Part shown: piece by piece, positions 24,658 to 42,028 of the stretch | How positions within the stretch are numbered: the stretch's first letter is position 1 | Layout of the letters: every line of letters begins with the position of its first letter | DNA from: Corynebacterium humireducens NBRC 106098 = DSM 45392 | Lineage (GTDB): Bacteria; Actinomycetota; Actinomycetes; Mycobacteriales; Mycobacteriaceae | Length of the DNA stretch: 64,000 bases | Assembly (NCBI RefSeq): GCF_000819445.1 | Contig: NZ_CP005286.1 | Location: forward strand, 1,922,001-1,986,000 | Direction: 5' to 3' | The notes under the pieces: generated by a model | What the model was told of the DNA's origin: nothing | The model's input: the letters and a program-made list of their open reading frames with translations, nothing else | Database searches by the model: none | Position numbers and translations under genes: made by a program

Positions 24658-24658
24658 C

Positions 24659-25123: not shown

Positions 25124-25229
25124 ACCTTCCCCCCGCCAGCCGCCCGCCCCCGAAGAACAGCGTGGAGCCGACACATCTGCTCTACTTGGTGGGTAGAACT
25201 GCGCACGACCCTGACCCTCCGGAGCCCCG

Positions 25230-25748
25230 ATGTCCAACCCCTTCGCCCCTCACGGCGGACAGCCCTCGCCTGATCCCGCCCCCACCCCCGGGTCCCGTTC
25301 CGGAGAGCAGAGCCCGTTCGCAGCGCCCGCCCCCTCCCCCTCCCCGGGTTCCCAGGGGTGGGGTGCCGCCCCGGACACCGACCTCCCGGTGGCTCTCCCT
25401 CCCGGACCCACCACCGCAACCACCGGCCCCTGGCACTTCGTCAGCGCGGCGGCGGTCACCGCGGTGCTGAGCATCGTCCTCGGGCTGGCCGCCTGGCTGG
25501 GGTCCACCGCCACGGAGCCGCTCTGGCTGACGCTCTCCGGTCTGGGCTGGTTCACCGCCGGCATCGTCACCTTCATCCTCCTGGGGCTGCACATCCAGGC
25601 GGACACGAAGCGCCAGGCGGCGGGCCTCTACGTCTCCAATCCCACCCAGACCCTCCTGTACCGGGCGGCGCTGGGTGTCGGGGCGGTCGGTGTCCTCATC
25701 AACGCAGTGGAGATCGCACTGTGGTTCGGCAAGGCCTACGGAGGTTAG
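25230..25748 (+). CDS. Proline-rich three-helix membrane protein, first gene of cluster
   Basis: 172 residues with GGAG six bases before the ATG. Residues 1-65 are disordered and Pro/Gly/Ser-rich, including a QGWGAAPD element. Three membrane helices follow at about 69-91, 98-121 and 144-168. No family recognised. It stops five bases before the vWA gene. The GWG motif recurs in the C-terminal tail of that vWA protein, suggesting a shared or interacting low-complexity segment. Confidence 0.72.
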   Translation: MSNPFAPHGGQPSPDPAPTPGSRSGEQSPFAAPAPSPSPGSQGWGAAPDTDLPVALPPGPTTATTGPWHFVSAAAVTAVLSIVLGLAAWLGSTATEPLWLTLSGLGWFTAGIVTFILLGLHIQADTKRQAAGLYVSNPTQTLLYRAALGVGAVGVLINAVEIALWFGKAYGG

Positions 25749-25753
25749 AAGGA

Positions 25754-28300
25754 ATGAAGACCACACCCGCTCTCCGTCTGCTGGCGGCCACCGCCACCAC
25801 GGCCCTCGCCGTCGGCCTCGCCGCCCCGGGCACCGCCCAGGACCTGTCACCGCGTGCGCAGGACAGTCTCGACGACTTCGGCTCCTGCCTGGCGACCACC
25901 AAGAGGGCCGACATCCTCTTCGTCCTCGACGAGTCCGGTTCCCTCTCCGGGCAGGGGGCGACCGCGCCCACCGACCCGGAGCACGTCCGCGTGGAGGCCA
26001 CCCGGGACCTCGTCCGGCAGTTCCAGACCCTGGCCGAGGACCTCGACGCCGACATCAACGTCAAACTCGCCGGCTTCGGCCAGCACTACCGCTCCGACCC
26101 GGCCGTGTACGGCGGGTGGACGTCGGTGCAGGGGGGCGTCGAGAAGCTGTCGTCCCAGATCGACGGTTTCCGGGACCGCGCCAACGACGGGTACACCACC
26201 TACGGGGCAGCCTTCGACGGCATGCTCCAGGAGTTCGCCCGCCACTCCGACGCCGGCGCCTGCAAGGCCACCCTGTTCTTCACCGACGGCATGCTCACCG
26301 TGGAGGGCCCGCCCGAGGCGGACGCCGCCGCCCGCGCCGCCGTGTGCGCGGAGGGCAGCCCCGTCGGCATGCTGCGCCGCGCCGACATCCGGCTCTTCTC
26401 CGTCGGCCTGATCCCCACCGACTCCGACACCCCCGAGGAGCTGCTGCGCAACATCTCCGAGGAGGACAGCTGCGTCCCTGGCACCACCGCGAACGGCGCC
26501 TTCTTCAACGCCGGCACAGACGCCGCCGCCCTGTTCTCCGCGTTCCGCAACATCATCCCGGCACCGGGTTCGGCGGGCGCCACGCAGGGCATCCACGAGC
26601 CCTTCCCCTTTGTGCTGGACGACACCGTCGCCCCGGTCCGCATCTCCGCGCAGCCGACCTCGCGTTTCGACGCCGCCACCATCACCCCCGTCCTCACCGC
26701 CCCGGACGGGCAGACCCTCGACCTCGTCCCGGGTGAGCACCAGCTCGGGGACACCACCGTCACCGTCACCGGCGTCGACAGCCTGCCCGGCATGTTCGAC
26801 GGCACGATGACCCTCAACGACGGCGGCACCTGGGCGGGCCGGTGGCAGCTGGGTTACCGCGTCGACGGCGACGCCCCCGGCGACTACGCCGCCTCCGTCC
26901 AGATCTCCCCCGGCCTGCACCTGCGGGTCGCGGAACTCGCCGAGGGCGGCCACACCGGCCTGGCCAGCACCGATCATCTGCACGTCAGCCTCCTGCGCGC
27001 CAGCGGGGAACAGGCCGTCCTGGCGGGCACCGCCGACCTCACCGCCGTGCTCACCGCCCCCGACGGCACCGAGACCGTCCTCGGTGCCCCGCAGTCCATC
27101 GCCGGGGGCACGGCCGTCGTGCCGCTCGACGCCGTCGACCGTCCCCTCACCGGGGAGCTGACGCTGCGCGCCGACATCACCACCCAGGGCGTCGACGACG
27201 CCCCCGGCACCCCCCTCACCCCGATCCAGGTGACCCACGGCATCACCGTCACCCCGGTGAACATGCCGCGCATCCCGGGAGAGATCAACGTCGACCTCGA
27301 GGAACGCGACACCACCTTCACCATCCCGGTCTCCGGGCCGGGTGCGGTGTGGATCGAGGAGGGCGAACTCGCCGGCGGCGACTCCCTGCTGCCCGCCGGC
27401 GTCGACAGCCTGCAGCTGAGCTCCCCGCACAACTCCGCCGCGACGGCCCTGCAGCTCGCGGAGGGCGAGTCCGGGGAGCTGGAGGTCACCGTCTCCACGC
27501 CCGCGCTTGCCGACGGCCCCGTGTCCCTCCTCCCCATCCTCCACCTGATCTCCGCGGAGGGCGACGCCGACGAGGCCGTCTCCGTGCCCCTCAACGGCTC
27601 CATGCGCGCCCCGGTCAGCGCCCCGGTCTTCGGCCTCGCCCTCGGCCTGGCGCTGCTGCTGGCCCTGCTCATCCCGCTGGGCCTGCTCTACCTGCTCAAG
27701 TACTTGACCGGCACCATCCCGCGGAACCCCGGCCTGCACGCCCTGGCCGTCCCGGTGCAGACGGAGAACGGCCGCCTCCTGCGCACCGACACCGGCGGCG
27801 ACTTCCGGGTCACCTACGACGAGATCATCAACTCCACCCCCCGACTCGTCCACAACGGCCGCTCCCTCACTGCGGCGGGCCGCCCCCTGCAGGTCGCGCT
27901 CGGCTGGAACCCCTTCGGCCCCGCCCGCGTCAGCCTCCCCGGCGCCGCGGTCACCGACCGGGGGGACACCACCCTGCCGCTCGCGGTGCACAACCACTGG
28001 TACGCGGAGGCGACCCCCGGCGCAGCGGACCACGGGCACATCATCCTGCTCGTCGACGAGTTCATCACCCGCGACAAGCTCGACGCCCTGGTCTCCGAGA
28101 TCGCCGCCGAGGGACCCGACCGTCTACGGCGGGCGCTCGACCTCACCGACGAGGAGCCCCCGGCACCGGACACCCCGACCTCCCCCACCACCCCGACCGG
28201 TGAGGGGTGGGGCGCCCCCTCCCCCACCCGCGACACCGGCTGGGGACCGGACACCGGTCAGGCCCCCGGCTGGGGCCCACCCACCGGCCACACCCCCTAA
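25754..28300 (+). CDS. Exported vWA-domain protein with transmembrane helix and GWG-rich cytoplasmic tail
   Basis: 848 residues. A signal peptide (1 to about 29) is followed by a von Willebrand factor A domain (about 50-270) with a complete MIDAS start DESGS (D59, S61, S63), GYTTYGAAF and FFTDGML. A large beta-rich extracellular part (about 290-610) follows, then one strong membrane helix (about 622-648). The cytoplasmic part carries a small domain and ends in a low-complexity tail with GWG repeats (GEGWGAP, DTGWGPD, APGWGPP). Likely an outward-facing, metal-dependent adhesion or sensing module that signals inward to the tubulin-like and GTPase partners. AAGGA-type ribosome site before the ATG. 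Confidence 0.78.
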   Translation: MKTTPALRLLAATATTALAVGLAAPGTAQDLSPRAQDSLDDFGSCLATTKRADILFVLDESGSLSGQGATAPTDPEHVRVEATRDLVRQFQTLAEDLDADINVKLAGFGQHYRSDPAVYGGWTSVQGGVEKLSSQIDGFRDRANDGYTTYGAAFDGMLQEFARHSDAGACKATLFFTDGMLTVEGPPEADAAARAAVCAEGSPVGMLRRADIRLFSVGLIPTDSDTPEELLRNISEEDSCVPGTTANGAFFNAGTDAAALFSAFRNIIPAPGSAGATQGIHEPFPFVLDDTVAPVRISAQPTSRFDAATITPVLTAPDGQTLDLVPGEHQLGDTTVTVTGVDSLPGMFDGTMTLNDGGTWAGRWQLGYRVDGDAPGDYAASVQISPGLHLRVAELAEGGHTGLASTDHLHVSLLRASGEQAVLAGTADLTAVLTAPDGTETVLGAPQSIAGGTAVVPLDAVDRPLTGELTLRADITTQGVDDAPGTPLTPIQVTHGITVTPVNMPRIPGEINVDLEERDTTFTIPVSGPGAVWIEEGELAGGDSLLPAGVDSLQLSSPHNSAATALQLAEGESGELEVTVSTPALADGPVSLLPILHLISAEGDADEAVSVPLNGSMRAPVSAPVFGLALGLALLLALLIPLGLLYLLKYLTGTIPRNPGLHALAVPVQTENGRLLRTDTGGDFRVTYDEIINSTPRLVHNGRSLTAAGRPLQVALGWNPFGPARVSLPGAAVTDRGDTTLPLAVHNHWYAEATPGAADHGHIILLVDEFITRDKLDALVSEIAAEGPDRLRRALDLTDEEPPAPDTPTSPTTPTGEGWGAPSPTRDTGWGPDTGQAPGWGPPTGHTP

Positions 28301-28330
28301 CACACACGAACAACGAGAAGAGGATCCACG

Positions 28331-31300
28331 TTGAAGAAGTTCCTGGTAGTCGGATGTGGCGGTTCCGGAGCCAAAACACAGGCCTACATGATGGACCAGC
28401 TCAAGGCGATGCTGCGCAGCGTCGACCCGAGCATCACGCGTCTGCCGAAGGCCTGGCAGTTCGTCACCATCGACGTCGCCGGACAGCCCGAACCGGGCCC
28501 CTCCGGCCTGGCCAACGTCCCGGAGAACGGCGGACGCTACATCAGCATCGGCTCGGACCAGCAGTACGCCACCTTCGACGCCGGCGTCTCCGCCAGCCTG
28601 GGTGCCAAGGGGGCCCTCGGTGAGATCGCCACGTGGGCGCCGCGCCAGCCGGAGCGCATCACCACCCCGATCTCGGACGGTGCGGGCCAGTACCGCGGTC
28701 TCGGCCGCATGCTCACCATCAACTCCCTGCGCAAGATCCGCTCCGGCCTCAACCAGGCCCTCTCGGAGCTCTTCGACGCCGACACCGACTCCGAGATCAA
28801 CGCCCTGAGCGAGAAGCTCACGGGACGTCGGCAGGATCTGTCGGCCTCCACCCCGATCATCCTGGTCCTGTCCTCCATGGCCGGTGGTGCCGGTGCCTCG
28901 ATGTTCGTGGACGTCTGCCGCGCGCTGTCCACCCTGCCCAACGGTGACCCGAAGAACACCGCCGTGTTCATGTACACCCCCGAGATCTTCGAGACCCTCG
29001 CCGACTCCGCCGTCGTGGGCACCTGGCCGAACTCGCTGGCCATGTTCGGTGAGGCACTCGCCGCCCAGACGGGCGCCGCCACCGCCAGCGACCAGGCCCT
29101 CTTCCGCGCCGCCGGCATCGAGTCGCTCGGCAGCCACCAGACCTTCGCCCGCCTCTTCCCGCTGGGTGCCCGGATGGGCGCGCAGGGCACCGTCTTCGGC
29201 GACGGCACCCCGGACACCATCTACCGGGGCGTCGGCCGCGCCCTCGCCGCGCTCATGGCCTCCGAGGAGGCGTCGAACTCCTTCGCCTCCTACCTGCTGG
29301 CGAACACCGGTTCCCCGGACGCCGACCGTTCCTTCCTCGGCTGGGGCGACCGGGAGAAGCTGCCGTGGGACGTCATGCCCTGGGCCACCTGGGGCTACGC
29401 CCAGCTGAGCATGGGCCGTGACCGTTACGCCGAGTACTCCGCGCAGCGCCTGGCGAAGACCGCCTTCGAGCGTCTGCTCCGCGGGCACCTCGACCCCGCC
29501 AACCCGGCCACCGGTGAGGAGCAGCTCCAGGCCCGCCTCGCCGAGCGCTTCCCCCGGATCCTCACCCGCCTGCAGCTGGACCCCCGCTTCGGCCAGGCCA
29601 CCCCGAACAGCGACAACCTGCGGGGGTGGCTGGCCCAGGTCTTCGAGAAGTACGGCAACCCGGCCACCGTCTCGGCGTCCGCCCTGGTGCACAAGAGCCT
29701 GCCCAACCACGAGGGCATGAAGTCCCAGGACTTCGCGCAGCTCATCCGCGCCCGCCTCGCCGACCCCCGCCTCAACGAGACCGTCTCCGCCCAGCTCTCC
29801 GACGCCGCCTACGCCGCCGTCCACGAGTTCGCCGACGCCCTGACCGATGCCCTCATCAGCATGTCCGAGGACGAGCTCGCCGCCCACGGCGTGCCCTACC
29901 TGGAGGCCGTGCTCGGGCACCTGCGGGACCTCTACACCCAGCGGGTCATCCAGCCGATGCAGACCCTGCTCAACGAGAACCGCGGCCGCACGGCCCTGGC
30001 CACCCCGCAGGGGCTGGACCAGTACCTCTCCCCGCTCAGCGGCCGCGGCAACGTCACCCAGGTGGGCAAGCTCCTCGACGACATCGCCGCCCTGTACCGC
30101 CCGCAGCTCTTCGACTACTTCCTCGTCAGAGTCGCCGCGAAGCTGGAGCCCGTCCTGGAGGACTTCGTCCGCACGGTGATCGGCCGTCTGGACAAGGAAC
30201 TGCGTTCCGCGCACACCACCCTCGAGCTGGCGGACAGCAGCGCCCGGGCACGCACCAACCTCGCCGACGTCGCCACGAATGAGCCGGTCGCCTGGCCGAA
30301 CGACAACGACGAGCGCATCGCCGACCGTTTCAAGGGCTCGCAGAACGAGATCCTCATCACCGAGGTCGAGTCCTTCCCACGCGACTACGAGGCGCACCTC
30401 CTGCAGACCATCCAGGTCGACGACCCGGGTGTCTTCGACTACCGGGAGGCCACGAAGGTGGCGGCCCGGGCGGTGATCGTCGGCAAGTGGAACACGCAGG
30501 CCGCGGAGAGGGCTCCCGCCGACACCCTGGCCCCGCGCCCGGTGGAGGGCCGGACCGGCGGCAACCGGGCCGGCTGGATCTCCAAGCACCTCCTCAAGTC
30601 CCCCACGGGTGGTGAGATCCGGGAGTCCCGCCCCGCCCAGTTCCGGGCCCGCATCCGCCCGGCCGACCTCCTGGAGCGCTCCCGCGCCTGGATCGCCCGC
30701 CCGAACGACCACTTCTCCAACTTCATCTCCGCTGACCTGCGCAGCTACATGACCGAGTCGACGATCAACGACATCGAGGCGAACAACCGGATGACGCGCC
30801 TGCGGGCCGCCTTCAACGAGGCGCTCAGCCAGGCCCGCCCGCTCGCCGCCGTCGACGCCAACCTGGTCTCCACGATCCACAACCGCCCCGACCTCTCGCG
30901 GTTCACCTTCTCCGAGATCCCGCTCAAGGACACCCGCGCGGGCGACGCCCTCAAGGAGATCCTCGACGCCAAGACCAACCTCGACGACACCACGCTCGGT
31001 GAGTTCAGCAAGGTCCTCAGCCTCGGTGAGAAGGTCCGCCACATCGACGTGTTCGGCTCCTACCCGAACTACTCGCCGCTGGTCTTCAGCTCCCTGCTCG
31101 CCCCGATCTCCCGGGCGTGGGCCAGCCGCAAGGGTCAGGAGGGCTTCTGGACGCTGCGTCGTTCCCGCCCCCTGCCGGCCGCACTGCCGCTGTCTGACGA
31201 CGAGCGACGCGCCATGGTCGCCGGCTGGATCATCGGCGTCACCACCGGCCAGATCCACATCTCGAACCCGAACACCCCGCAGGCGGCCGCCCACATCTTC

Positions 31301-31960
31301 GACCGGGACTCCCAGACCTGGGTCGACTTCCCGTCGCCGATGCTCACCCCGCCTTCCGCCATGCAGGCCGCCATCGACTGGATGCCCGCCGTCATCGAGT
31401 CCGTGCTGCTGGCCTACGCCAACGTCGCGCTCAGCGACTCACAGGGTCGCCAGGGCAGCTCCCTGCGCCCGTACCACCTCCTGCGTGGCATCTACGACGA
31501 CAACCCCTCCGGCCCGACCACCGGTGGAGTGGTCAACCACCCGGTCGTCTCCCACCTGGCGGAGTTCCTCCGCACGGGTGAGCGTCCCTCGCAGCAGGCC
31601 CTGGGCGCGGACATCGACGAGCGCCACGGGCTGCTGCGTGAGGCCCTCCTCCGCTCGCACAGCAACGCGCAGACCTTCGTGGCCGACAACCGCTCCGTGC
31701 TCCCCGGTTCGCAGACCGAGGAGAAGCCGTGGGCCACGGTCACCAGCCGTGAGTACGCCAAGAAGATGCCCCTCTACCGCGACCTGGCCCCTGATGTCAT
31801 CGCGGTCACCGAGGACCTGCTCGGCCGCCTCGAGGAGGCCCGACAGCAGGCGGAGGCCCCGGTCGGCTTCGATCCCTTCCCGGGCGCGGTCCAGCCTGAC
31901 CCGACCCGCCAGGCGTCCAGCGGCCCACAGCTGCCCGACTTCGGTGGGGGTCTGATCTGA
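28331..31960 (+). CDS. Large tubulin-like protein (Tubulin_2 type)
   Basis: 1209 residues from a TTG behind AGAAGAGGA. The N-terminus FLVVGCGGSGAKT (4-16) is a nucleotide-binding loop. LSSMAGGAGASMFVDV (180-195) has the place and form of the tubulin/FtsZ GGGTGTG signature (here AGGAGAS, 184-190). Residues 200-350 continue the tubulin-like part; beyond that come ~850 residues of helical sequence I do not recognise, with a short Pro-rich end. It is not FtsZ: too long and with a divergent signature. Expected to bind GTP/ATP and perhaps polymerise. Its stop overlaps the next start (TGATG). Confidence 0.75.
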   Translation: MKKFLVVGCGGSGAKTQAYMMDQLKAMLRSVDPSITRLPKAWQFVTIDVAGQPEPGPSGLANVPENGGRYISIGSDQQYATFDAGVSASLGAKGALGEIATWAPRQPERITTPISDGAGQYRGLGRMLTINSLRKIRSGLNQALSELFDADTDSEINALSEKLTGRRQDLSASTPIILVLSSMAGGAGASMFVDVCRALSTLPNGDPKNTAVFMYTPEIFETLADSAVVGTWPNSLAMFGEALAAQTGAATASDQALFRAAGIESLGSHQTFARLFPLGARMGAQGTVFGDGTPDTIYRGVGRALAALMASEEASNSFASYLLANTGSPDADRSFLGWGDREKLPWDVMPWATWGYAQLSMGRDRYAEYSAQRLAKTAFERLLRGHLDPANPATGEEQLQARLAERFPRILTRLQLDPRFGQATPNSDNLRGWLAQVFEKYGNPATVSASALVHKSLPNHEGMKSQDFAQLIRARLADPRLNETVSAQLSDAAYAAVHEFADALTDALISMSEDELAAHGVPYLEAVLGHLRDLYTQRVIQPMQTLLNENRGRTALATPQGLDQYLSPLSGRGNVTQVGKLLDDIAALYRPQLFDYFLVRVAAKLEPVLEDFVRTVIGRLDKELRSAHTTLELADSSARARTNLADVATNEPVAWPNDNDERIADRFKGSQNEILITEVESFPRDYEAHLLQTIQVDDPGVFDYREATKVAARAVIVGKWNTQAAERAPADTLAPRPVEGRTGGNRAGWISKHLLKSPTGGEIRESRPAQFRARIRPADLLERSRAWIARPNDHFSNFISADLRSYMTESTINDIEANNRMTRLRAAFNEALSQARPLAAVDANLVSTIHNRPDLSRFTFSEIPLKDTRAGDALKEILDAKTNLDDTTLGEFSKVLSLGEKVRHIDVFGSYPNYSPLVFSSLLAPISRAWASRKGQEGFWTLRRSRPLPAALPLSDDERRAMVAGWIIGVTTGQIHISNPNTPQAAAHIFDRDSQTWVDFPSPMLTPPSAMQAAIDWMPAVIESVLLAYANVALSDSQGRQGSSLRPYHLLRGIYDDNPSGPTTGGVVNHPVVSHLAEFLRTGERPSQQALGADIDERHGLLREALLRSHSNAQTFVADNRSVLPGSQTEEKPWATVTSREYAKKMPLYRDLAPDVIAVTEDLLGRLEEARQQAEAPVGFDPFPGAVQPDPTRQASSGPQLPDFGGGLI

Positions 31961-34665
31961 TGCTGCCCAACGTGATGTTCTTCGGTTCGGGGGCGATCTC
32001 CGACCAGATCCGCGCCCGACTGCAGGATCTGGCCGCGATGTCGCTCATCCGCTCCTTCGCGTGGGTGGATCCGCGCCTGGGAGCCGACCGCCCGGCCGTC
32101 CGCCTGTGCCGCCCCGACGGTTCCCTCCTGTCGGTCGTCACCCTCGACGAGGCCCTGCGGGACCTCGACGGCAACATCCTCCTCGTCGCCCTGGACCCGC
32201 TGAGTCGGGACTCCGCGACGGAGTTCGACATGTCCGCCGTACAGCGGTGGACCACCGCGATCGACGCCCGCGTGCCCGGCACGAACCCGCGCGTGCGGGT
32301 CCTGCTGCCGCGCCTGCCGCTGGACACCCTCGTCCCCGCCCCGGAGATGGGCTGGTCGACGGTGGCGATCGCGCCCGAGGACTCCGACGCCCCGACCTCG
32401 TCGGTCACCCCGGTCAACCGTGCCGACGACCCCCACGCCGTCGCCGAGCTGGCGGCCGCCACCCTGGCGACTCTCACCGGCCTGTGGCGTTCCGCCGAGC
32501 ACGCGCCGCTTCTCGACGCCCACGGCCGCGCCGTCTCCACCGGCGACGAGCACACGTTCCGCCTGGTGCGCGCCTACCACCGCACGATCGACGCCTCCGA
32601 GATCGAGTCGCAGGTCCGCGAGCAGGTCTTCGACGTCACCGGCCAGCTGCCGCTGCCGATGGTCGAGGACGGCCGCCAGGCGGTGCGCATGCCCGACCCG
32701 GCGGTCACCGGCGGGCAGGCCGCGGACGCTCTCATCAACCGCTACCGCGACTCCCTCCTCACCCCGCCCCGACAGCTGCAGACCGCCGAGACCCTCCGCC
32801 CCTCCGCCTGGGCGGCGCTGAGGAAGTTCCTCGGGGAGTTCTTCCGGGCGTCGGTGGGCACCCCGAAGGACTGGAAGCACGCGCAGGGGCACGCCCTCAA
32901 CGCGGCGATCGCCAAGGCCGTGCAGAACACCCTGTACGGGCAGGGCGCCTCCGTCGACATCGTGTGCGGCACCTACCGCGGACGTTTCAACGACCCGGGG
33001 CTCTTCGAGCTCACCTCCGCCACCGCCGACCTCAAGCGGGACGCCCGCAGCCGCGGCCTCAACATCGAGGACCCGCCGAGCCTCCCGGACCTGTGGAACG
33101 GCTACCGTCGCGTCGCGCTCATGCTCGTCGACGGCACCAACTACCTCGGTGACACCTTCGACGCCCCCCGCGACAACCAGCACAACCCGGCGATCGTGGA
33201 ACAGGGCTGGATGTCGGTGCCGGACCCCGCCGACCGTTTCGAGGGCTACCACCCGCAGCTCACGGACATCCTCGGTCTGCAGCCCGCCGACGCCGTCATC
33301 AGCCCCTACGACTCCCACCATGCGCGCGTGTACAGCGAGGGACTGGATTTCGCGGTGACGCAGACCTCGGACCGTAACGTCCTGGCCCTGCGCGACCGCT
33401 TCCGGGAGTGGTCCGAGCGCATGTCGACGTCCTTCGCATGGCAGACCGGCGAACGCCTCATGCAGATGCTGGGGCAGGCCCAGCAGAACGCACACAAGTG
33501 GCGCGACGTGCACCAGGGGATCAGCTCCGCCCTCCGGGGCTACGAGGGCCGCGACTACGATTCGGAGAACCGCCGCCTCACCCGTGTGCTGCGTCTGTTC
33601 ACCGCCCTGTGGGTGCTGCTCATGATCCTCATCGGCTACCTCACCCTGAGCCACTACCAGCCGAAGTACCGGTTCGCGGACTGGATGACGGGCATCGACT
33701 GGCGCTGGGCACTGCTGTCGGTGTTCCTCACGACGGTGGTCATCATGGGCACCCAGATGTTCATCTTCGCCCGCGCCCGCCGGGGGATCCTCGACGACCT
33801 CAACCAGATGCGTCTCCTGGTGGCCAACGAGGAGATCTCCCGTCTCAACTCCAACGCCGCCGTCAACGACGTCGAACGTCTCGCGCAGTCGTACCACCAG
33901 TTCCTGTCCTGGTCGACGCTGCTCGGCAAGGCCATCGCGCAGCCGCTGGGACGTGTGGACCACGACCACGGCGCCGTCACCATCCCGACGTCCGGCCTGC
34001 CCCGCACCACCCGCCTGGGACGGGCGGTCCTGCCGCCGGAGGAACTGCAGCGGATGGTCAATGACCTGCGCCATGCCGTCTTCCCCCGCGACTGGGCGGA
34101 CCGCGCCCTCAACCAGCTTGTCGACGACGCTGCCCGGGAACTCCAGCACGTCGACGGCACCCGCATCGCCTCGGTCAACGAGCTGCACGGGCAGGCGGGC
34201 ACCGGCTCCCGTTCCGCGCTGGACAAGCTGTCCTCCCTCGTCGCGTCGGGGGCGGCGGACGACCGCAGCCACTCCGACGAGGCGTGGGCGGAGGCCATCA
34301 GCAGCCACGGCATGGCCTCCCGTTTCGATCAGCGTGACATCGCCATCGAGATGTACCGCGACGGCGACCGCGTCACCGTCTCCCGGGACGCCTTCCGCGC
34401 CGACCTGACCGCGACGAACGGCATCCCGCACTTCTCCAACCGTTCCCTCAACTACGAGGGCGTCAACGCCGGCGCCACCGCGGTGGACCCCGCGATCGGC
34501 GGCGTCCTCCACTCCCCCGCCGACACCCGCGCCGCCGGCACCCTGACCAGTTCGGTCAGTGTCATCCAGTACGGCAACTTCACCCGCCTGGAGAACCTGT
34601 CCGCGAGGACCACCCCGGGCCCGCAGGACGACACCACGACCCCCGACTGGGACTCCCTGATCTAG
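31960..34665 (+). CDS. Two-helix membrane protein with Rossmann-like N-terminus
   Basis: 901 residues; ATG overlaps the previous stop by one base. The N-terminus MLPNVMFFGSGAISDQIRARL and later ILLVALDPLSRDSA resemble a Rossmann-type fold, though no full GxGxxG is present. A long soluble middle has several conserved-looking WNGYR and DGTNYLG stretches. Two membrane helices are at about 546-568 and 583-606 with a short loop, so both large parts face the same side, probably the cytoplasm. Family unknown. It may anchor the tubulin-like polymer to the membrane; that is inference. Confidence 0.65.
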   Translation: MLPNVMFFGSGAISDQIRARLQDLAAMSLIRSFAWVDPRLGADRPAVRLCRPDGSLLSVVTLDEALRDLDGNILLVALDPLSRDSATEFDMSAVQRWTTAIDARVPGTNPRVRVLLPRLPLDTLVPAPEMGWSTVAIAPEDSDAPTSSVTPVNRADDPHAVAELAAATLATLTGLWRSAEHAPLLDAHGRAVSTGDEHTFRLVRAYHRTIDASEIESQVREQVFDVTGQLPLPMVEDGRQAVRMPDPAVTGGQAADALINRYRDSLLTPPRQLQTAETLRPSAWAALRKFLGEFFRASVGTPKDWKHAQGHALNAAIAKAVQNTLYGQGASVDIVCGTYRGRFNDPGLFELTSATADLKRDARSRGLNIEDPPSLPDLWNGYRRVALMLVDGTNYLGDTFDAPRDNQHNPAIVEQGWMSVPDPADRFEGYHPQLTDILGLQPADAVISPYDSHHARVYSEGLDFAVTQTSDRNVLALRDRFREWSERMSTSFAWQTGERLMQMLGQAQQNAHKWRDVHQGISSALRGYEGRDYDSENRRLTRVLRLFTALWVLLMILIGYLTLSHYQPKYRFADWMTGIDWRWALLSVFLTTVVIMGTQMFIFARARRGILDDLNQMRLLVANEEISRLNSNAAVNDVERLAQSYHQFLSWSTLLGKAIAQPLGRVDHDHGAVTIPTSGLPRTTRLGRAVLPPEELQRMVNDLRHAVFPRDWADRALNQLVDDAARELQHVDGTRIASVNELHGQAGTGSRSALDKLSSLVASGAADDRSHSDEAWAEAISSHGMASRFDQRDIAIEMYRDGDRVTVSRDAFRADLTATNGIPHFSNRSLNYEGVNAGATAVDPAIGGVLHSPADTRAAGTLTSSVSVIQYGNFTRLENLSARTTPGPQDDTTTPDWDSLI
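32508..32520 (+). repeat. GCTTCTCGACGCC word
   Basis: Exact copy, read as Leu-Leu-Asp-Ala after CCG. Confidence 0.7.
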
Positions 34666-34678
34666 GACCACATCCACC

Positions 34679-36757
34679 ATGACTCAACTGACGCTCAGCG
34701 AGATCCCGCTGCCGGTGCTGCGTGGGATCGCGGCACTCCACGACCCGACCCGCGACGAGGTGTCCGCGGCACTGCCGGAGAACGCCCGGCACCTCGCCGA
34801 CGACATCATCGCCCTGCTCAACGGCCGACCCGCCAGCGCCCCGGCGTTCCCCGCCCCGGAACCGGAGCCGGAGCCGGAGCCCGAGCCTGTGATCCCCGAG
34901 CCCGTGGTCCCGGAGCCGGAGCCTGTCCCGCGCAGCACCGCGACGGCCTCCCTCCAGGACCTGGCCCGCGCCCTCGAGGAGGAGGTCCGGGGCCAGACCG
35001 CAGCGGAGGCGGCCCGCCAGCAGGTCGACCCCGCCCTGTTCCTCGACATCGACCCGGCCCTGTTCGACAGGTACCAGTACGGTTCCACCCCCGACCACCT
35101 GTCCCCGGGCATCACCGTCGAGCACCACCCCGCCCCGGTGGACGAGGACGGCGAGCCCCAGGGCCGGGGCTCCGTCCTCATCTCCTGGGAGCCGCCCGCG
35201 GTCCCCGCCGGCCATCAGGTCGTCTACCGGGTCGTCGCCGCGGACCGGGAGGTGATCGCCTCCCCGGACGGCCAGCAGACGCTGGTGACCACGCTGGGTA
35301 CCGCCTACCTCGATGAGGATCTCGGCACCAGCGGTGTCCGGCACTACATGGTGTGGGCGAACGTCCTCCGGAGCGAGCTCAAGGAGGCGCTGCACTCCCA
35401 GCCCACGCTGGTCGGTGAGCGGATGGTGGTGTTCCCGCCGGAGAACTTCCAGCTGGTCGAGTCGAAGGGCACCATCACCGGCACGTGGGACCCCCTGCCT
35501 GGGCATGCAGAGATGCGTGTGTACGCGAAGCTCGAGCAGGTCCCCGTCGACATGCGGGACCCCGGCAACCAGGTCATCAGCGGGGTGAGTGACCGCCGCT
35601 TCATCTACGAGGCCGCGGAACGTGGGCGGAACTACGTCTTCCAGCTCGTCCCGGCCGCCGAGTTCCGGGGTTCCCTCATCCTGGGTGAGGGCAGCGCGGA
35701 GCTCCGGCAGGCCACGAGCGCGGACATCCGGCAGGTGCAGCTGAATACGCCGCAGCTGTTCAACGACGGCCGGAACGAACGCATCATGCTGTCCTGGACG
35801 GCGCCCCCGACCGGCAGCGTGAAGATCTTCCTCTCGCAGATCCCCCCGCGTCCGACCCTCACGGTCGCCCCCGTGGAGTACTCCTGGATCGAGGACGACC
35901 CGGCCTTCGTCGGCGAGATCCCGACCGACACCAGCGAGGCCCCGGCCGGCAGCACCGCCGACACGACGATGACGTGGCCGGAGGGGTGGCACGAGGTGTA
36001 CATCACCGCCGTCAACATCGTCGGCGACAAGGCGTGGGCCGGCCCCAGCGAGGTGATGCAGCGGGTCTCCCCGATCACGGAGGTCCGCCTGGTCGAACGC
36101 CTGTCGAGTCAGCTCATCACGTTCGACTGGCCGGCCGGCGCGCGGATGGTGCAGATCGAGACGTCGAACAGCCCGACGAGCCGGGAGCTGCTGGAGGAGG
36201 ACTACCGGCGCCAGGGTGGCGTCCGCGTCCAGCTGGCGCACACGGGTGAGGAGGTCACCCTCACCCCGAAGTCCTTCTACGCCGGCCGGGACACGACGGC
36301 GGAGCCGACGCACCTGCGTTACCGCGGTCTGAAGACCTACTCCTACGATCTGCGGACGGTGGACAACGGGACGCAGCTGCTCATCTGGCGCAACGAGTCG
36401 GAGGACCGTAACCCGCCGCGTTTCACGCTCGTCCACAACCCGACGTCGCTGCCGCTGCACCCGCACGACGGCCGCCCGCTGCGGTGCGCCAACGTACAGG
36501 ACATCCTGGACGGCCGGCAGGCGCAGGGTCCGGTGATCGTCGCCTCGCACGGTCTGTCCCGGGGCCGCCCGGAGGTCGGCAGCGCCAACCAGGTCACCTG
36601 GTGGGTCGAGATGCCTCCCGCGGCGACGGGCTACGTGCGTCTCTTCCTTCTCGACGACGACCAGGAGCAGGACGACTCCCTCGCGGCCAAGGTCGTCGTC
36701 GAGGGTGACGTGGCCGAGCGCCTGCGCATCGAGTCCCTGTGGAGGAGCCAGCCGTGA
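34679..36757 (+). CDS. Multi-beta-domain cytoplasmic protein with Pro-Glu linker
   Basis: 692 residues, no signal peptide or membrane helix. A short helical domain (1-50) is joined by a PEPEPE linker (about 58-85). At least four fibronectin-III-like units follow, each with a xxISW/GTW/LSW/FDW-type strand: about 162-225, 262-330, 362-430 and 478-530, with a final LLIWRNESED unit. Acts most likely as a scaffold for protein contacts. It overlaps the next gene by four bases (GTGA). The fold assignment is by strand pattern only. Confidence 0.6.
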   Translation: MTQLTLSEIPLPVLRGIAALHDPTRDEVSAALPENARHLADDIIALLNGRPASAPAFPAPEPEPEPEPEPVIPEPVVPEPEPVPRSTATASLQDLARALEEEVRGQTAAEAARQQVDPALFLDIDPALFDRYQYGSTPDHLSPGITVEHHPAPVDEDGEPQGRGSVLISWEPPAVPAGHQVVYRVVAADREVIASPDGQQTLVTTLGTAYLDEDLGTSGVRHYMVWANVLRSELKEALHSQPTLVGERMVVFPPENFQLVESKGTITGTWDPLPGHAEMRVYAKLEQVPVDMRDPGNQVISGVSDRRFIYEAAERGRNYVFQLVPAAEFRGSLILGEGSAELRQATSADIRQVQLNTPQLFNDGRNERIMLSWTAPPTGSVKIFLSQIPPRPTLTVAPVEYSWIEDDPAFVGEIPTDTSEAPAGSTADTTMTWPEGWHEVYITAVNIVGDKAWAGPSEVMQRVSPITEVRLVERLSSQLITFDWPAGARMVQIETSNSPTSRELLEEDYRRQGGVRVQLAHTGEEVTLTPKSFYAGRDTTAEPTHLRYRGLKTYSYDLRTVDNGTQLLIWRNESEDRNPPRFTLVHNPTSLPLHPHDGRPLRCANVQDILDGRQAQGPVIVASHGLSRGRPEVGSANQVTWWVEMPPAATGYVRLFLLDDDQEQDDSLAAKVVVEGDVAERLRIESLWRSQP

Positions 36758-38124
36758 GTGCCGCAGCCTTCAGTTACGCGTCCTTCTCCCGGGGTGCCGG
36801 CGGTTGGCAGATCGGCGAGGTCGTCGGGCCGCTCGATGAGGGGCGGGTGAGGTCCCTGCTGGGTGCGGTCCCGACCCAGCTCGGTGACGGCACCCAGGTC
36901 CCCACGTACCCGGACAGGAAGGAACGCGCCCGTCTGGTGCGCCGTTTCGCCTGGCTGCCGGCCCCCTGGGATCCGCGGGTGCGGGTGTTCTTCTCCTCCG
37001 TCCCCGCGGGTTCCGACGCCACCGGCCGCCCCGGCAACGTCTTCACCTACGTGTCGGTGTGCGGTGGGCCGGACGTCCCCGTCGGTGCCGCCGTCTCCGC
37101 CATGTTCAGCCCGGACATCCCGACGCCCTTCGGGCCGCGGGAGACCGAGTCCGCCCGCATCCCCGCGCAGCCCGCGCAGGCCGGCCCGGTGGCCGGGCTG
37201 GTGCCGACGTTCCTGGACGGCTGGGAGGAGGGTACCTCCCCCCTGCCGGAGATCTTCGCCGCCGTGTCCAACACCCACGGCACCCGGCGCCGGGATCTCG
37301 TCCGTTTCCTGGCGTCCACGCTGGAGACGGGCGAGCCCGTCGTCCTGGCGTGCCCGCCGGCGGAGGCCCCCCTGTGGGTCGCCGCCGTGAACGCCGAGAG
37401 GCCACAGCTGGACTTCTGCTTCTCGACGATCGAACGCACCCCCACCGTCGAGGAGACCCTGTCCCGCGGCGCGCAGCTGGTCATGGTCCCCCTGCCGGAC
37501 GCCGACCGCGTCCGGGTCATGCTCCCCCATCTGACGGTCATCACCACCACCGACGACATCCCCGCCGCGCCCGCCCCGGAACCGGTCGCCGACGCCCTGT
37601 CCAACCCCTTCGACGCGGAGCCGGAGCTCCCGCCTGCCCCGGACCTCTCAGTGCAGTTGTCCGAGGTGACCGACTACCTGGGACGCCCCGGCACGCCCGC
37701 GTACCTGACGGCCGGTCTCACGCTGACCCCGACGGCGGCGCAGAACTCCTTCCTCCACACCGCCGGGGTGCAGGAGTGGGTCGACGTCCTGCGCGGGGAG
37801 GTCGAGGATCCGCTCACCGTGTCCGACGTGCTCGGTTTCCTGCTGTTCCCGCCGACCAGTTTCATCGGCGCCCGCACGCGGGCGATGGTGCTGGCCGCGG
37901 AGACCGCGGAACCGTGGTGCAGCCGGGACGTCACGCGTTTCGGGTGGCTCTTCGACCTGCCCGACGACCTCCAGGAGGAACTCTGCCGGGACGCCGCCGC
38001 GCAGCTCCCGGAGACCCCCGGACCGGTTGCGCCCCGGGAGGACGGACTGCCGGTGACCGACCTGGTGCGGAGGGTCGTCGAGAAGCATCATGCCCGCACG
38101 CCCCGAACCCAGGTGAGGAAGTAG
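36754..38124 (+). CDS. GAP1-like (GTPase-associated protein) N-domain protein
   Basis: 456 residues from the GTG at 36754 with GGAGG eight bases upstream. The first 150 residues fit the GAP1-N pattern: FSYASFSRGAGGWQIGEVVG, a PTYPDRKERARLVRRFAW stretch, then TGRPGNVFTYVSV (about 89-101). The remainder is helical, with DFCFSTIERTPT and FLLFPPTSF blocks. GAP1 proteins are predicted to work with a double-GTPase (DO-GTPase) in bacterial conflict systems; a GTPase lies two genes downstream. Assigned by motif memory, not by search. Confidence 0.62.
   Translation: MSAAAFSYASFSRGAGGWQIGEVVGPLDEGRVRSLLGAVPTQLGDGTQVPTYPDRKERARLVRRFAWLPAPWDPRVRVFFSSVPAGSDATGRPGNVFTYVSVCGGPDVPVGAAVSAMFSPDIPTPFGPRETESARIPAQPAQAGPVAGLVPTFLDGWEEGTSPLPEIFAAVSNTHGTRRRDLVRFLASTLETGEPVVLACPPAEAPLWVAAVNAERPQLDFCFSTIERTPTVEETLSRGAQLVMVPLPDADRVRVMLPHLTVITTTDDIPAAPAPEPVADALSNPFDAEPELPPAPDLSVQLSEVTDYLGRPGTPAYLTAGLTLTPTAAQNSFLHTAGVQEWVDVLRGEVEDPLTVSDVLGFLLFPPTSFIGARTRAMVLAAETAEPWCSRDVTRFGWLFDLPDDLQEELCRDAAAQLPETPGPVAPREDGLPVTDLVRRVVEKHHARTPRTQVRK
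37418..37430 (+). repeat. GCTTCTCGACG word, variant in another frame
   Basis: Same first eleven bases, but read as Cys-Phe-Ser-Thr, showing the word is not tied to one peptide. Confidence 0.5.
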
Positions 38125-38126
38125 CC

Positions 38127-39104
38127 ATGTCCACCATCACTCTCAGCGCGAACGACTCCCACCCGATCCCCCTGGGCGGGTACCTGCGCATCGACGCCTT
38201 CTCCGTCGGCGGCGCCGCGGAACCTGTCCGCGTCAGCGTCAACGGCGAGCAGCTGCAGGCCAACGCCGCAGGCGACAGCTGCGTGTTCCTCATGTCCTGC
38301 CCGCAGCGCGCCACCATCGTCGTGGCCCCCGCCCACGGTGGGGAGTTCGGGCCGGACCAGTCGACGCGGGTCACCGTCACGCGCAGCGGCGCCAGCGACC
38401 ACCGGGACATCACGGTGGAGTTCCCCATCGTGCGTGTCGACGGCGTCAGCGAGAAGATCATCGGCGAGATCGACAACACCGGCGAGCACTACCTGCTCAC
38501 CGCCTACGGTTCCGACGAGTCCACCAACCTGGGCCGCGAGTCCATGGTCGTGCTCTCCGCGCTGCGCAGCCGCCTGACCGCCCCCACCGGAGTGACCTCG
38601 CTCGTGCTGTGCCCGGACGCCTCCGCGACCGCCGCCCAGCTCAACGATCCCCGCATGATCGCCGGGGCCGCGCACATGGTCACCGGCGTCGCCACCGCGC
38701 TCACCCTCGACTCGGTCCGCCTCGGCGGGGAGTCGTGCACCTTCGACCAGCTGGCGGCACGACTGGAGGCCCTGGTGGGGGCGGGAGCCACCCGCATCGG
38801 TGGCGAACGTCCACCGCAGGTCGACGACCACACCCTGGTGGTCCACCTGACGCCGACCCCGCGGGCCGCGATGGTGAGCACCGGGCACCCCAGCCTGGTC
38901 CTCGCCTACGGCCCCACCGCCGCCGCGGAGCAGGAGCTCTTCGAGCTCAACCTGCGCAGCGGCGACCGGACCGGTTTCGTCGCCCTCACCGACCACGTCC
39001 TCACCGCCCTGGAGGACGGCAGCCACTCCGCCATCGCCCCGCACGCGGACACCATCGCGGCCGTCCTGTCGTCCCCCACCAACCCCCACGGAGCCACGGA
39101 ATGA
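38127..39104 (+). CDS. Unrecognised two-domain cluster protein
   Basis: 325 residues, cytoplasmic. The N-terminus (1-100) is beta-rich (MSTITLSANDSHPIPLGG, VRVSVNGEQLQA), distantly recalling the strands that begin TerD proteins, too weak to assign. The middle (about 110-220) is alpha/beta with LLTAYGSDESTNLG. Overlaps the GTPase gene by four bases (ATGA), so its level is coupled to it. Only found here as part of this cluster. Confidence 0.5.
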   Translation: MSTITLSANDSHPIPLGGYLRIDAFSVGGAAEPVRVSVNGEQLQANAAGDSCVFLMSCPQRATIVVAPAHGGEFGPDQSTRVTVTRSGASDHRDITVEFPIVRVDGVSEKIIGEIDNTGEHYLLTAYGSDESTNLGRESMVVLSALRSRLTAPTGVTSLVLCPDASATAAQLNDPRMIAGAAHMVTGVATALTLDSVRLGGESCTFDQLAARLEALVGAGATRIGGERPPQVDDHTLVVHLTPTPRAAMVSTGHPSLVLAYGPTAAAEQELFELNLRSGDRTGFVALTDHVLTALEDGSHSAIAPHADTIAAVLSSPTNPHGATE

Positions 39105-40123
39105 GCCAGTTCGCACGTTGCCCGCACACCTTCCGACCCCTGGACCCCGGCGCCACGGTCAGTCCGTACACCGGTCTCGAACTTCCCGCGGACTGGTCCG
39201 AGAGCGTCACCCACTGCATCGCCATGGCCGGCGCCCGGGCGTCCGGCAAGTCGCTGTACACCGCCGTGGTGATCAAGCAGCTGGAGCTGCTGGCGGCGCG
39301 GTTCCACCGCCTCATCCGGCCGCTCGACGAGTCCACCCGGGAGCGCTACACCACACACTACGAGACCCCGCTCTACCTCGAGATGCGGCACATGGCCCCC
39401 ACCCCGACGAGCACCAGCACCGACGCCTACCAGCGGGACCCGCTGATCTTCACCCTGGGCACCTGGCGCGCCCCGGACGGCGTCGACCGTGTCCACAACC
39501 TCGTGCTGCGTGACGTCGCGGGCGAGGACCTGGAGAACACCGAGACCCCCGTCGAGGAGCTGGAGTTCTTCCGCCACGCCCACCTCATCGTCTTCCTCTT
39601 CGACCCGCTGAAGGTCCCGCAGATCAGCAGCTACCTCCACGGGCTCATCCCGCCGCAGGCCAGCCTCGGCGGCAACCCGGAGGACGTGCTGGAGAACCTC
39701 CGGCGGATCCTCGGCGACGCCCGCCCGGCCCTGGCGGTGACGATCTCGAAGTTCGACACCCTGCAGAAGCTCGCCGCCCTCCCCGACGGGGAGTGGCAGG
39801 CGATCATGGGCAACGAGGGCTCCAGTTTCCGCCGCGACACCGGCTGGGACTTCGACCGGCACGACCAGCTCATGCTCGACATGGAGATCGACGCACTCCT
39901 GCGGTACGTCAAGGCCGACACCCTGCTCAACCAGCTGGAGGAGGCCTACGGCAGCCGCGGGGAGCGCCACTACTTCGCCGTCTCCGCCCTGGGTGAGTCC
40001 CCCACCGGTGAGCACCTCAGCCGGCAGGGCATCGCGCCCTTCCGCACCACCGATCCGCTGCGCTGGCACCTCCAGCGTTACGGGGTGTTCGAGGAGCCGC
40101 AGCCGGGAGGTGTGTCGCTGTGA
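39101..40123 (+). CDS. P-loop GTPase-like protein (DO-GTPase type)
   Basis: 340 residues from the ATG at 39101. A short N-terminal part with CPHTF is followed by Walker A GARASGKS (G44-S51), a switch-like LVLRDVAGEDLE (D138, G141) equivalent to the DxxG motif, and TISKFDTL (S216-D219) in the place of NKxD. These order as in small GTPases of the double-GTPase group used in predicted conflict systems. Whether it uses GTP or ATP is inferred from the SKFD motif. Overlaps both neighbours by four bases. Confidence 0.7.
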   Translation: MSQFARCPHTFRPLDPGATVSPYTGLELPADWSESVTHCIAMAGARASGKSLYTAVVIKQLELLAARFHRLIRPLDESTRERYTTHYETPLYLEMRHMAPTPTSTSTDAYQRDPLIFTLGTWRAPDGVDRVHNLVLRDVAGEDLENTETPVEELEFFRHAHLIVFLFDPLKVPQISSYLHGLIPPQASLGGNPEDVLENLRRILGDARPALAVTISKFDTLQKLAALPDGEWQAIMGNEGSSFRRDTGWDFDRHDQLMLDMEIDALLRYVKADTLLNQLEEAYGSRGERHYFAVSALGESPTGEHLSRQGIAPFRTTDPLRWHLQRYGVFEEPQPGGVSL

Positions 40124-40608
40124 CGTTCCAGGGACCTGAACGCATCGGCTGGGACGAGCCCGACTCCTCCGCCGGGCACGGACACACGCAACCGGAGAGC
40201 TACGTCTACGGTCAGCCCGTGGCGGACACGGAACGCCGCCACGTGTCGGCCCGCGGGGTCAACCCGCTGCAGGCGCCGTGGAACCTGCTGATCTCGGCGG
40301 GTCTCTACCTGCTGGGTGTCGGCTACCTCACGTACCTGCTCATCTCCCACGTCAACTCCACTCCCCTGCGGCACGACTTCTACTGGGAGTTCTTCACCCT
40401 CAAGGTGGTGGCCCTGGTGGCGATCGTCGTGCTAGTCGGGGCCATGCTGCTGGCCCAGCCCTGGGGCAGGTACGGGCTCAGTGCGGTGACGGTCGTGGGG
40501 ATCCTCGTGGTCGTCCTCCCCGGGTTCTGGCCCGCCAGCCTGCTGGGCATCGCCGCGGGTGTTGCGTTGTGGCTGCCCCGCGGGCACGCCTGGTTCGGCT
40601 TCCGCTGA
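40120..40608 (+). CDS. Four-helix membrane protein, last gene of cluster
   Basis: 162 residues from a GTG that overlaps the GTPase stop by four bases. Residues 1-45 are polar, then about four hydrophobic segments (about 51-75, 88-108, 117-135, 139-152). No family recognised. Placed at the end of the operon as a likely membrane effector or anchor for the soluble GTPase. Its stop abuts the stop of the convergent TPR-like gene in a TGATCA palindrome. Confidence 0.7.
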   Translation: MTFQGPERIGWDEPDSSAGHGHTQPESYVYGQPVADTERRHVSARGVNPLQAPWNLLISAGLYLLGVGYLTYLLISHVNSTPLRHDFYWEFFTLKVVALVAIVVLVGAMLLAQPWGRYGLSAVTVVGILVVVLPGFWPASLLGIAAGVALWLPRGHAWFGFR

Positions 40609-41970
40609 TCAGCGGGCGCGGGCCTGCTCCACCTGGCGGTGCAGGCCCAGCTCCTCCATGGTGGTGACGGCGCGGCCGAGCATCTCCTCGTAGGTGGTGT
40701 GGGCCCCGGCGAAGCGGTGCATGAGCGCCAGCTCGAGTTCCGCCATGGCGTACCCCAGCCGGTCGCTCTTCTCGGTGAGCGTGTCCTGCGGGTACTCCGT
40801 GAGGATGTCGATGAACAGGTTCGCCGCGTCCCGGTGCATGCTGCGCAGGAAGTACAGCCGGGCCAGCCCGGTGCTGGCCACCACCTGCGCCGGCAGGAAA
40901 CGTTCCCGCCGGGCCAGGGAGTACGCGTGGTTGAGCGAGGTGAAGGCGTCGCGGGGGTTGTCCTCGCGGGCGAGGAACTCGCCCTCGTGGATGAGTGCGT
41001 CGATGTACTCGCCCACGTCACCGTCGCCACTCAGCAGGGTCTCCTTGGCGGACTCCATCAGGGGCCGCCACTGCGGGGAGTTGTGTGCGGCACGGTAGCC
41101 GGCCGTCCCCATGTCGACGGCGGCGAGCCCCTCCTCGCCCAGGAGCTCCGCGCCCACGACGTGCCGGCTCTCGTGGAGTGGCGCCGCCGCCAGGGCCAGC
41201 ACCTGGTAGGCGGCGGCCCGGTCCACGAAACGCAGCGCGACGTAGTACTCGTAGGCGATGCGGAAGCGGTCGACCAGGGTGCCGATGCTCTCGTCCGCCG
41301 GGTCGAGGACGGACATCGTGGCGTCGAAGAGCGTCTGCACGGCCTCGAGGTCGAGGTCCTCACCGCGGTCAGCGATGAGCTCGACGATCCGGTCGACCTG
41401 GTCCTCGCTGAACTGGGCCGGTCCGGCGGCGAGCCAGGTGGCCACCTCCTCGTCGACGGCGGCGAGCGCGGGATCGAGCGGGCGTGCCAGGAGGGAGTCC
41501 AGATGGTCCAGCGCCCGGACGATGCGCTGGTTGAGGGGTTCATGGTTCATGCGCAGGGGGTGGACGACCAGCCACTCGGCGAGGTCGAGCATCCTCTCCG
41601 CCGCGTCACGGTCGGTGGTCTGCATGATCTCGGTGACCAGCTGGTTGGCCTTGCCCTGGAACACCAGGTCCGGGTCGCCGGAGGCGAGGCCGAGGGCCGT
41701 GAGGTGCTCCGCGTGGCGCCCGGCGTGGGGGTCCTGCAGTGCCCCGTCCCCGGAGATCTCCGCCAGGTCGGTCGCCTGCATGAGTCGGGCGGCCTCGACG
41801 AGCAGGTCGGTGTGCTCCTCCACCGCGGCGAGGGTGTCGAGTCCGCGGAGGGTCTCGTCGATGCGCGGGCCGACGCGCCGTGCGTGCCCCAGGTAGTCCT
41901 GCGGGGCGAGGTCCCCCCGACTCCGGTGGATCTCGTCGACCAGGGTCCGCAGAGAGTCGATGTCCTGCAC
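40609..41970 (-). CDS. TPR-like helical protein
   Basis: 453 residues from the GTG at 41970. That start is favoured over an upstream GTG at 42015 because a -10 TATGAT (42009-42004) lies between them and GAAGGAAGA precedes 41970. All helical with repeated A-x-x-x-L-Y/F patterns; the last ~90 residues (ASTGLARLYFLRSMHRDAAN..EYPQDTLTEKSDRLGYAMAELELALMHR) align well with the C-terminus of the neighbouring 222-residue protein. Converges on the cluster, so a regulator or partner of it is plausible. Confidence 0.68.
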   Translation of the reverse strand: MQDIDSLRTLVDEIHRSRGDLAPQDYLGHARRVGPRIDETLRGLDTLAAVEEHTDLLVEAARLMQATDLAEISGDGALQDPHAGRHAEHLTALGLASGDPDLVFQGKANQLVTEIMQTTDRDAAERMLDLAEWLVVHPLRMNHEPLNQRIVRALDHLDSLLARPLDPALAAVDEEVATWLAAGPAQFSEDQVDRIVELIADRGEDLDLEAVQTLFDATMSVLDPADESIGTLVDRFRIAYEYYVALRFVDRAAAYQVLALAAAPLHESRHVVGAELLGEEGLAAVDMGTAGYRAAHNSPQWRPLMESAKETLLSGDGDVGEYIDALIHEGEFLAREDNPRDAFTSLNHAYSLARRERFLPAQVVASTGLARLYFLRSMHRDAANLFIDILTEYPQDTLTEKSDRLGYAMAELELALMHRFAGAHTTYEEMLGRAVTTMEELGLHRQVEQARAR

Positions 41971-42009: not shown

Positions 42010-42028
42010 GGTCACGGGACGGGTGGCT

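Follow-up and report, generated by a model that had tools for sequence, protein, structure and literature searches.

A nine-gene GAP1-N2/DO-GTPase tubulin-type block inserted between hrcA and hemW in Corynebacterium humireducens

The genome of Corynebacterium humireducens NBRC 106098 is a single contig of 2.68 Mb, of which we analysed a stretch of 64 kb (hereafter the window, to which all positions refer). It carries at 25230-40608, on the plus strand, a block of nine genes (g1 to g9) that combines a tubulin-family protein, a GAP1-N2 protein, a GTPase, proteins with von Willebrand factor A (vWA) domains, and membrane proteins. An earlier note on this DNA had described a coupled cluster of eight genes at these coordinates; the coupling stands, and the count becomes nine with the omitted 162-residue protein encoded at 40120-40608. 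The note was also right on the tight spacing: the intergenic distances from g1 to g9 are +5, +30, -1, +13, -4, +2, -4, and -4 bases, i.e. no gap exceeds 30 bases, three overlaps are of four bases and one is of a single base. All nine open reading frames (ORFs) are intact and have a third-position GC content of 0.88-0.95, of the coding type. The longest open frame of the plus strand of the region has 1219 codons, against a mean of 375 and a maximum of 955 in 200 shuffles, but length is a poor argument because the minus strand also has a frame of 1104 codons, in line with the high GC content, and conservation is a better one. We compared the block with relatives in 41 loci, i.e. 40 fetched regions and the locus L032 (among the 44 other genomes with Tubulin_2, those labelled G045, G130, G091, and G023 were left out). 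The order of g1-g4 is kept in all of these loci and that of g5-g8 in 40, so that the synteny check suggested by the note finds the core g1-g8 in order in 40 of the 41; L066 is the exception, a stretch of 12.4 kb cut short by the edge of its contig. The conservation of order across 41 loci means that the block is not a product of chance. Gaps above 200 bp are found at two of the 283 junctions, which leaves no room for an inserted gene at the remaining ones. These two gaps (739 and 214 bp) separate g6 from g7 in L050 and L063, where the g7 frames are short (192 and 258 codons), perhaps due to frameshifts or assembly errors. No sigma-70-like promoter was found upstream of the block, in what is a weak test.

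The gene g3 (28331-31960, plus strand, TTG start) encodes a Tubulin_2 (FtsZl1) protein of 1209 residues (Pfam PF13809, E 3.6e-39), and the genome has no other match to this family. Its tubulin domain, at residues ~5-379, includes the loop T1 (GCGGSG), a T3-like motif (GAGQYR..GR), and the loop T4 (GGAGAS), of which T1 and T4 (GGxGAS) are invariant in an alignment of 31 rows. The protein thus carries both glycine loops, T1 and T4, in the domain by which FtsZl1/Tubulin_2 is recognised. It differs from FtsZ and tubulin, whose T4 is GGGTG, in having GG[A/S/T]GAS at this place and a C-terminal extension of 830 residues, which has no family match in Pfam. When compared with a profile of 22 FtsZ proteins, g3 aligns over two distinct segments, one with T1 and one with T3-T5 (E 0.27 and 0.04, or 0.055 and 0.39 with another column setting, where six control profiles give 0.11-0.63), at HH probabilities of about 1% or less. 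Judged from its loops, nucleotide binding by g3 is plausible. Profile searches against solved structures gave only E values above 0.04 for g3, as they did for g4 and g5.

The tubulin gene shares the block with genes for two putative partners of a GTPase switch. The first, g6 (36754-38124, plus strand, 456 residues), matches the GAP1-N2 family (Pfam PF20013, E 7.8e-12, 45.8 bits for a cut-off of 24); its N-terminal domain is conserved and its C-terminal half differs between relatives. The second, g8 (39101-40123, plus strand, 340 residues), is a DO-GTPase2-type GTPase with the motifs G1 GARASGKS, G3 DVAGED, and G4 SKFD. The Glu of Walker B in DVAGED (E142) is invariant in the alignment. The copy of g8 in the window has no Pfam match of its own, and 13 of 15 members of the family match DO-GTPase2 (PF19993; E up to 1, best 1.2e-8); a profile search against solved structures gave nothing at E up to 1. 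The zinc ribbon is missing from the N-terminus of g8, which reads ARCPHTF and has no CxxC pair. The Rhodococcus copy of the GTPase starts with a paired zinc-ribbon-like motif (CPRC...CPIC), which is reduced to CPHT in the window. The earlier note had linked GAP1 and DO-GTPase to predicted conflict-system pairs, correctly so according to Kaur et al. 2020 (PMC7159879).

Between these two genes lies g7 (38127-39104, plus strand, 325 residues), which had been left as unrecognised and which we can now assign, on the basis of an AlphaFold2 model (pLDDT 80.4, pTM 0.58), of VIA-align, and of profile comparisons, to a predicted TerD-like beta-sandwich (~2-135) followed by a vWA domain (~140-320). TerF has this layout, a TerD domain and then a vWA domain, and the TerF-like ORFs that also match TerD upstream agree with it. 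As modelled, g7 has a TerF-like layout and is a newly interpreted component of the block. None of 15 members of the g7 family matches Pfam TerD or vWA-TerF-like at E up to 1, and two match VWA_2 (best E 0.0043). Comparisons of g7 with TerF-like profiles, on both strands, gave E values of 0.0027-0.024 with HH probabilities of 2-11%. The search against solved structures returned midasin (E 0.14), which drew attention to the metal ion-dependent adhesion site (MIDAS). This motif is degenerate in the window (DASAT, the third Asp being lost), and the family alignment shows it degraded there and in L032. The likeness to the Ter proteins TerD and TerF (PMC7824862), i.e. a TerD-like sandwich and then a vWA domain albeit with no Pfam match to either, opens an alternative in which the block is a Ter-like stress module: g7 would be its core and respond to a ligand or a metal, as has been suggested for TerD/TerF, the tubulin and the GTPase would be the membrane-bound effector arm, and the output would be resistance to membrane-active agents or phages. 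We hold this to be improbable. No other Ter genes were recognised in the block. The zinc-ribbon cysteines that g8 lacks and the MIDAS degradation in g7 could also be the marks of a decaying or neutral island, a former conflict system that is kept by linkage. This seems very improbable given the nine ORFs of the block and the ratio of nonsynonymous to synonymous substitution rates (dN/dS), which over the eight core genes of the pair formed by the window and L032 is 0.16-0.42, well under 1.

Of the nine proteins, four contain hydrophobic membrane segments. The vWA protein g2 (25754-28300, plus strand, 848 residues) matches Pfam VWA (E 1.8e-7), with the vWA domain at residues 53-239 and an intact MIDAS (DESGS, T, D). 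It has one transmembrane (TM) segment at 619-653, a Pro-rich tail, and an N-terminus that, judged by eye, is signal-like; the vWA domain probably sits outside the cell. The families of g2, g3, g6, and g8 bear out the labels vWA, tubulin-like, GAP1, and GTPase that the note had given. The protein g4 (31960-34665, plus strand, 901 residues) has two TM segments (540-565 and 584-604) and belongs to no known family. The small proteins g1 (25230-25748, plus strand, 172 residues), with a Pro-rich N-terminus and found in all 41 loci, and g9 (40120-40608, plus strand, 162 residues) have three hydrophobic segments each, seen in g1 by hydropathy. The best match to g9 falls on an ORF of its own in 16 of the 41 loci and on the g1 ORF in 22, with none in the other three. 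The label "multi-beta" of g5 (34679-36757, plus strand, 692 residues) fares less well than the others: a likeness to FN3 exists and is weak (fn3 E 0.0098, 16.5 bits for a cut-off of 25). Alignments of g5 show an N-terminal segment of ~50 residues and an acidic Pro-rich linker. An all-against-all hhalign comparison of the eight core families gave unconvincing signs of paralogy, of which the best were g3/g4 (E 0.029) and g2/g7 (E 0.035), at HH probabilities under 2%, and the idea that g4 is a hidden second tubulin domain is unsupported.

The block lies in an insert of 18,036 bp (24662-42697) between hrcA and hemW. The closest relative (G139) has 39 bp in its place, flanked by segments that match 22571-24661 and 42698-45567 of the window at 98.6% and 94.4% identity in blastn (locus L073), and its hrcA and hemW are 43 bp apart. 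On another contig this genome carries a different version of the cluster: HrcA and HemW of the two genomes are 97% identical, and tubulin and GTPase 39%. In the 12 genomes that are closest by HrcA the gap between hrcA and hemW, read by eye, is of 15 to 1,635 bp in every case. The cluster of L032 adjoins hrcA and a gene for a tetratricopeptide repeat (TPR) protein, as in the window. Across 42 loci we distinguish 19 groups of upstream flanks and 13 of downstream flanks, numbers that overstate the distinct sites because the flanks are mostly of 0.1-2.7 kb; moreover, the downstream flanks begin after g8, so that g9, and not a common site, may be what unites the largest downstream group (17). We found no tRNA at the insert. 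The longest direct word shared by its ends has 11 bases, against a mean of 9.4 and a maximum of 11 in 30 shuffles, and there are thus no end repeats beyond chance.

The distribution of the block is patchy. Tubulin_2, GAP1-N2, and g8 are each present in 45 of the 151 genomes of the genus (the window counted), and these are the same 45 genomes. They are thus far from the universal core genes that the earlier note had named as the outcome that would speak against it. The control scans found Tubulin_2 and GAP1-N2 in Corynebacterium glutamicum. Draws of genomes from higher ranks have GAP1-N2 in 3/198 and Tubulin_2 in 6/198 (phylum), and Tubulin_2 in 33/251 (family). Among 72,556 plasmid records, two Rhodococcus plasmids (1.39 and 1.10 Mb) carry all nine genes in the same order, with a tubulin that is 36% identical. 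Matches to NCBIfam were below the cut-off and concerned two of ten proteins. Two loci show other arrangements. In another family of the class, L133 (G313:C2) combines, within 20 kb, two matches to GAP1-N2 with two DO-GTPase-like ORFs, in a genome that lacks a Tubulin_2 match; it may represent a further theme among systems of this kind. In L132 (G334:C1), a Tubulin_2 ORF of 1228 codons directly follows an ORF with a weak likeness to vWA (E 0.003); the genome has no GAP1-N2 match, and the two are perhaps a tubulin/vWA pair without GAP1.

The kind of system to which the block belongs has already been predicted, in 2010 and in 2020, from gene neighbourhoods. The suggestion of the note that it would be a distinct architecture must be given up: the same combination has been known for Actinobacteria since 2020 (PMC7159879), and operons with an FtsZ-like protein, a vWA protein, and a GTPase since 2010 (PMC2875224). 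Kaur et al. described actinobacterial tubulin-type GAP1-N2/DO-GTPase systems, mutually exclusive with VMAP systems, and proposed for them a role in conflict (PMC7159879). The block shares with these systems GAP1-N2, DO-GTPase (a TRAFAC GTPase with Glu in Walker B), a single tubulin gene whose product is extended at the C-terminus, a membrane-bound vWA protein, and, putatively, an FN3-like protein. In the published systems the C-terminal domain of the tubulin is alpha-helical, and the vWA protein includes a beta-rich part. It differs from them in a number of ways. First, the main-text passages on the tubulin theme name no TerD-vWA component such as g7, and the main text has a single mention of TerD, in connection with a different system (PMC7159879). 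Second, the GTPase of the window lacks the zinc ribbons that are found at the N-terminus of 60% of DO-GTPases, "usually" two of them in GAP1-N2 systems (PMC7159879). Third, the fusion of HRDC to one FNIII protein, as in the system of Kaur et al., could not be confirmed: 12 members of the g5 family gave no HRDC match in their N-terminal 90 residues. Fourth, the paper stresses multicellular bacteria for GAP1-N2 (601/904), and the genus of the window, presumably unicellular, has the system in 45 of its 151 genomes. We found no experimental study of this kind of system in the open literature searched. What is new here is the TerF-like layout predicted for g7, the clean insert between hrcA and hemW, the co-occurrence in the same 45 genomes, the copies on Rhodococcus megaplasmids, and the localised divergence of GAP1.

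The older description of such operons carries with it a different view of their function. Makarova and Koonin (2010) proposed for FtsZl1 operons a role in membrane remodelling (PMC2875224), in a paper that precedes the naming of GAP1 and DO-GTPase and in which a reviewer cites the neighbour cgR_2627 of C. glutamicum, a vWA protein with a signal peptide. The block has in common with these operons Tubulin_2, a vWA domain with an intact MIDAS, and a P-loop GTPase; a survey of FtsZ from 2023 finds the distribution of Tubulin_2 scattered. The block could then be an accessory physiological machine for membrane remodelling or envelope stress, in which membrane-associated filaments of the tubulin-like protein shape or repair the membrane, the vWA proteins and the GTPase are metal- and GTP-regulated controllers, and the fast C-terminus of GAP1 tracks a changing partner within the cell and not an invader. 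This account is possible, if somewhat doubtful. The membrane segments in four of nine proteins and the lack of a recognised effector enzyme fit it, as does the presence of DO-GTPase in some psp envelope-stress operons of Gammaproteobacteria (PMC11237479). The patchy presence in the genus, the different copies in near relatives, and the plasmid copies would be unusual for a machine that shapes or repairs the cell.

Tubulin and GTPase distances correlate with r 0.95 across 38 genomes (Mantel comparison), those of HrcA and HemW with r 0.87, and those of the cluster and of HrcA plus HemW with r 0.66. The mean pairwise identity is 0.49 for the GTPase and 0.42 for the tubulin, then 0.30 for g5, 0.27 for g4, 0.26 for GAP1, and 0.22 for g7. 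Tubulin and GTPase evolve slowly, and the C-terminal half of GAP1 evolves faster. Among 25 close pairs (tubulin identity of at least 0.85), the proportion of nonsynonymous differences (pN) is higher in the C-terminal than in the N-terminal half of GAP1 in every pair, with medians of 0.215 and 0.057, where that of synonymous differences (pS) is 0.60 and 0.49. The same comparison favours the C-terminal half of g7 in 18 of the 25 pairs. In g5, the first 180 codons have a higher pN than the remainder in all 25 pairs (0.191 vs 0.081), but they include the low-complexity linker and their excess is thus weak evidence. One pair, L036/L037, stands out: the tubulins are 99% identical, yet 36-54% of the residues differ over the last 200 of the 650 residues of GAP1. 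Synonymous differences in this pair are at 0.06-0.18 until the last ~290 codons of GAP1, where alone they reach 0.34-0.48, and they drop again in g7, which looks like the exchange of a cassette at the 3' end of the GAP1 gene. This type of change, too, would be unusual in a machine for shaping or repair. In the other pairs pN increases without pS, and selection or relaxed constraint is a simpler explanation than exchange. Two further pairs look mosaic: L051/L053, where g1-g3 are diverged, g4 is little diverged, and g5-g8 are nearly identical, and L055/L057, where g1-g3 are closer than g4-g8.

Considering these elements together, we propose that the block is a mobile, membrane-tethered module of the GAP1-N2/DO-GTPase tubulin type, made of a sensor, a GTPase switch, and a tubulin scaffold, and under diversifying pressure, an interpretation that we regard as an even call. 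We infer for it a role in defence. In this scheme, an invader or an insult to the envelope would be detected on the outside by g2, the anchored vWA protein, and in the cytosol by recognition parts (g5, g7, and the C-terminus of GAP1). GAP1 would relay the detection to the DO-GTPase, whose GTP state would switch the complex and allow the Tubulin_2 protein g3 to form, or to remodel, a scaffold beneath the membrane that depends on GTP. The scaffold would be held there by g4, with its two TM segments, and by the small membrane proteins g1 and g9, and the membrane might as an outcome be reorganised, sealed, or sacrificed. A bolder version, which we think unlikely, is that of a mobile membrane-guard machine where TerD-vWA and an exchangeable C-terminal cassette of GAP1 give specificity to the GTPase switch that triggers the tubulin scaffold, i.e. 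an immune-type cytoskeleton of Corynebacterium and Rhodococcus that is plasmid-borne in the latter.

A number of observations weigh against a mobile defence module under diversifying pressure. As regards mobility, the correlation between cluster and core genes was reached by none of 2000 permutations, i.e. the cluster partly follows core relationships, and upstream flanks are common to groups of 8, 7, and 6 loci, which indicates that the distribution is partly vertical and that the cluster is not freely mobile. Both Rhodococcus megaplasmids are typed as non-mobilizable, and no integrase or other mobility gene was recognised with Pfam among the proteins scanned. As regards selection, all eight core genes, as the remodelling account would have it, are under net purifying selection, with median dN/dS of 0.04-0.20, values that come from hand-chosen pairs and from GAP1 start sites that in many relatives were set too far downstream, at the cost of the N-terminal domain; furthermore, the 25 close pairs share ancestry and are not independent. 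As regards defence, no nuclease, protease, toxin, or other effector was recognised in the block, nor is there a variable effector gene, unlike in many conflict systems. PADLOC-DB 2.0.0 has no family for ten of the proteins at E up to 1, none of seven proteins matches PHROG, and no relative of the tubulin was found in 50,697 phage records or, by the patterns used, in viral contigs.

The genus makes the system testable. Corynebacterium glutamicum, a genetic model, carries Tubulin_2 and GAP1-N2, and the natural pairs of genomes with and without the block and the diverged halves of GAP1 are ready comparisons. Should the tubulin turn out to assemble upon infection, a filament of the tubulin family would be serving immunity. 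If it does not, the Ter-like component still joins two poorly understood stress systems.

Other genes surround the conserved block. Upstream, 106 bp before g1, a passenger gene encodes a TM2-domain protein of 116 residues (24773-25123, plus strand; Pfam TM2, E 2.9e-10), of which a relative lies within the fetched stretch in three of the 41 loci (L039, L064, and L068). Downstream, two genes for TPR-like proteins on the minus strand (together 40609-42697) share the insert with the nine genes. The first (40609-42015) is convergent with the block and outside its conserved part (TPR_12 E 9.9e-4, below the cut-off), and is beside the cluster in one of the 41 loci, L032. The second (42029-42697), at the right end of the insert, has sub-threshold matches to several TPR families (best E 1.3e-4). 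Far from the insert, a separate gene of 609 residues (1842-3671, plus strand) lies in a local dip of GC content (0.54-0.58 vs ~0.69). It has no Pfam match at E up to 0.1, and it matches PADLOC PDC-S39 (E 6.8e-5) and Csx1/Csm6 (E 0.018). Its C-terminus reads RNSLAHGH, which we take to be an HEPN-like motif, and it is possibly a foreign gene of the defence type.

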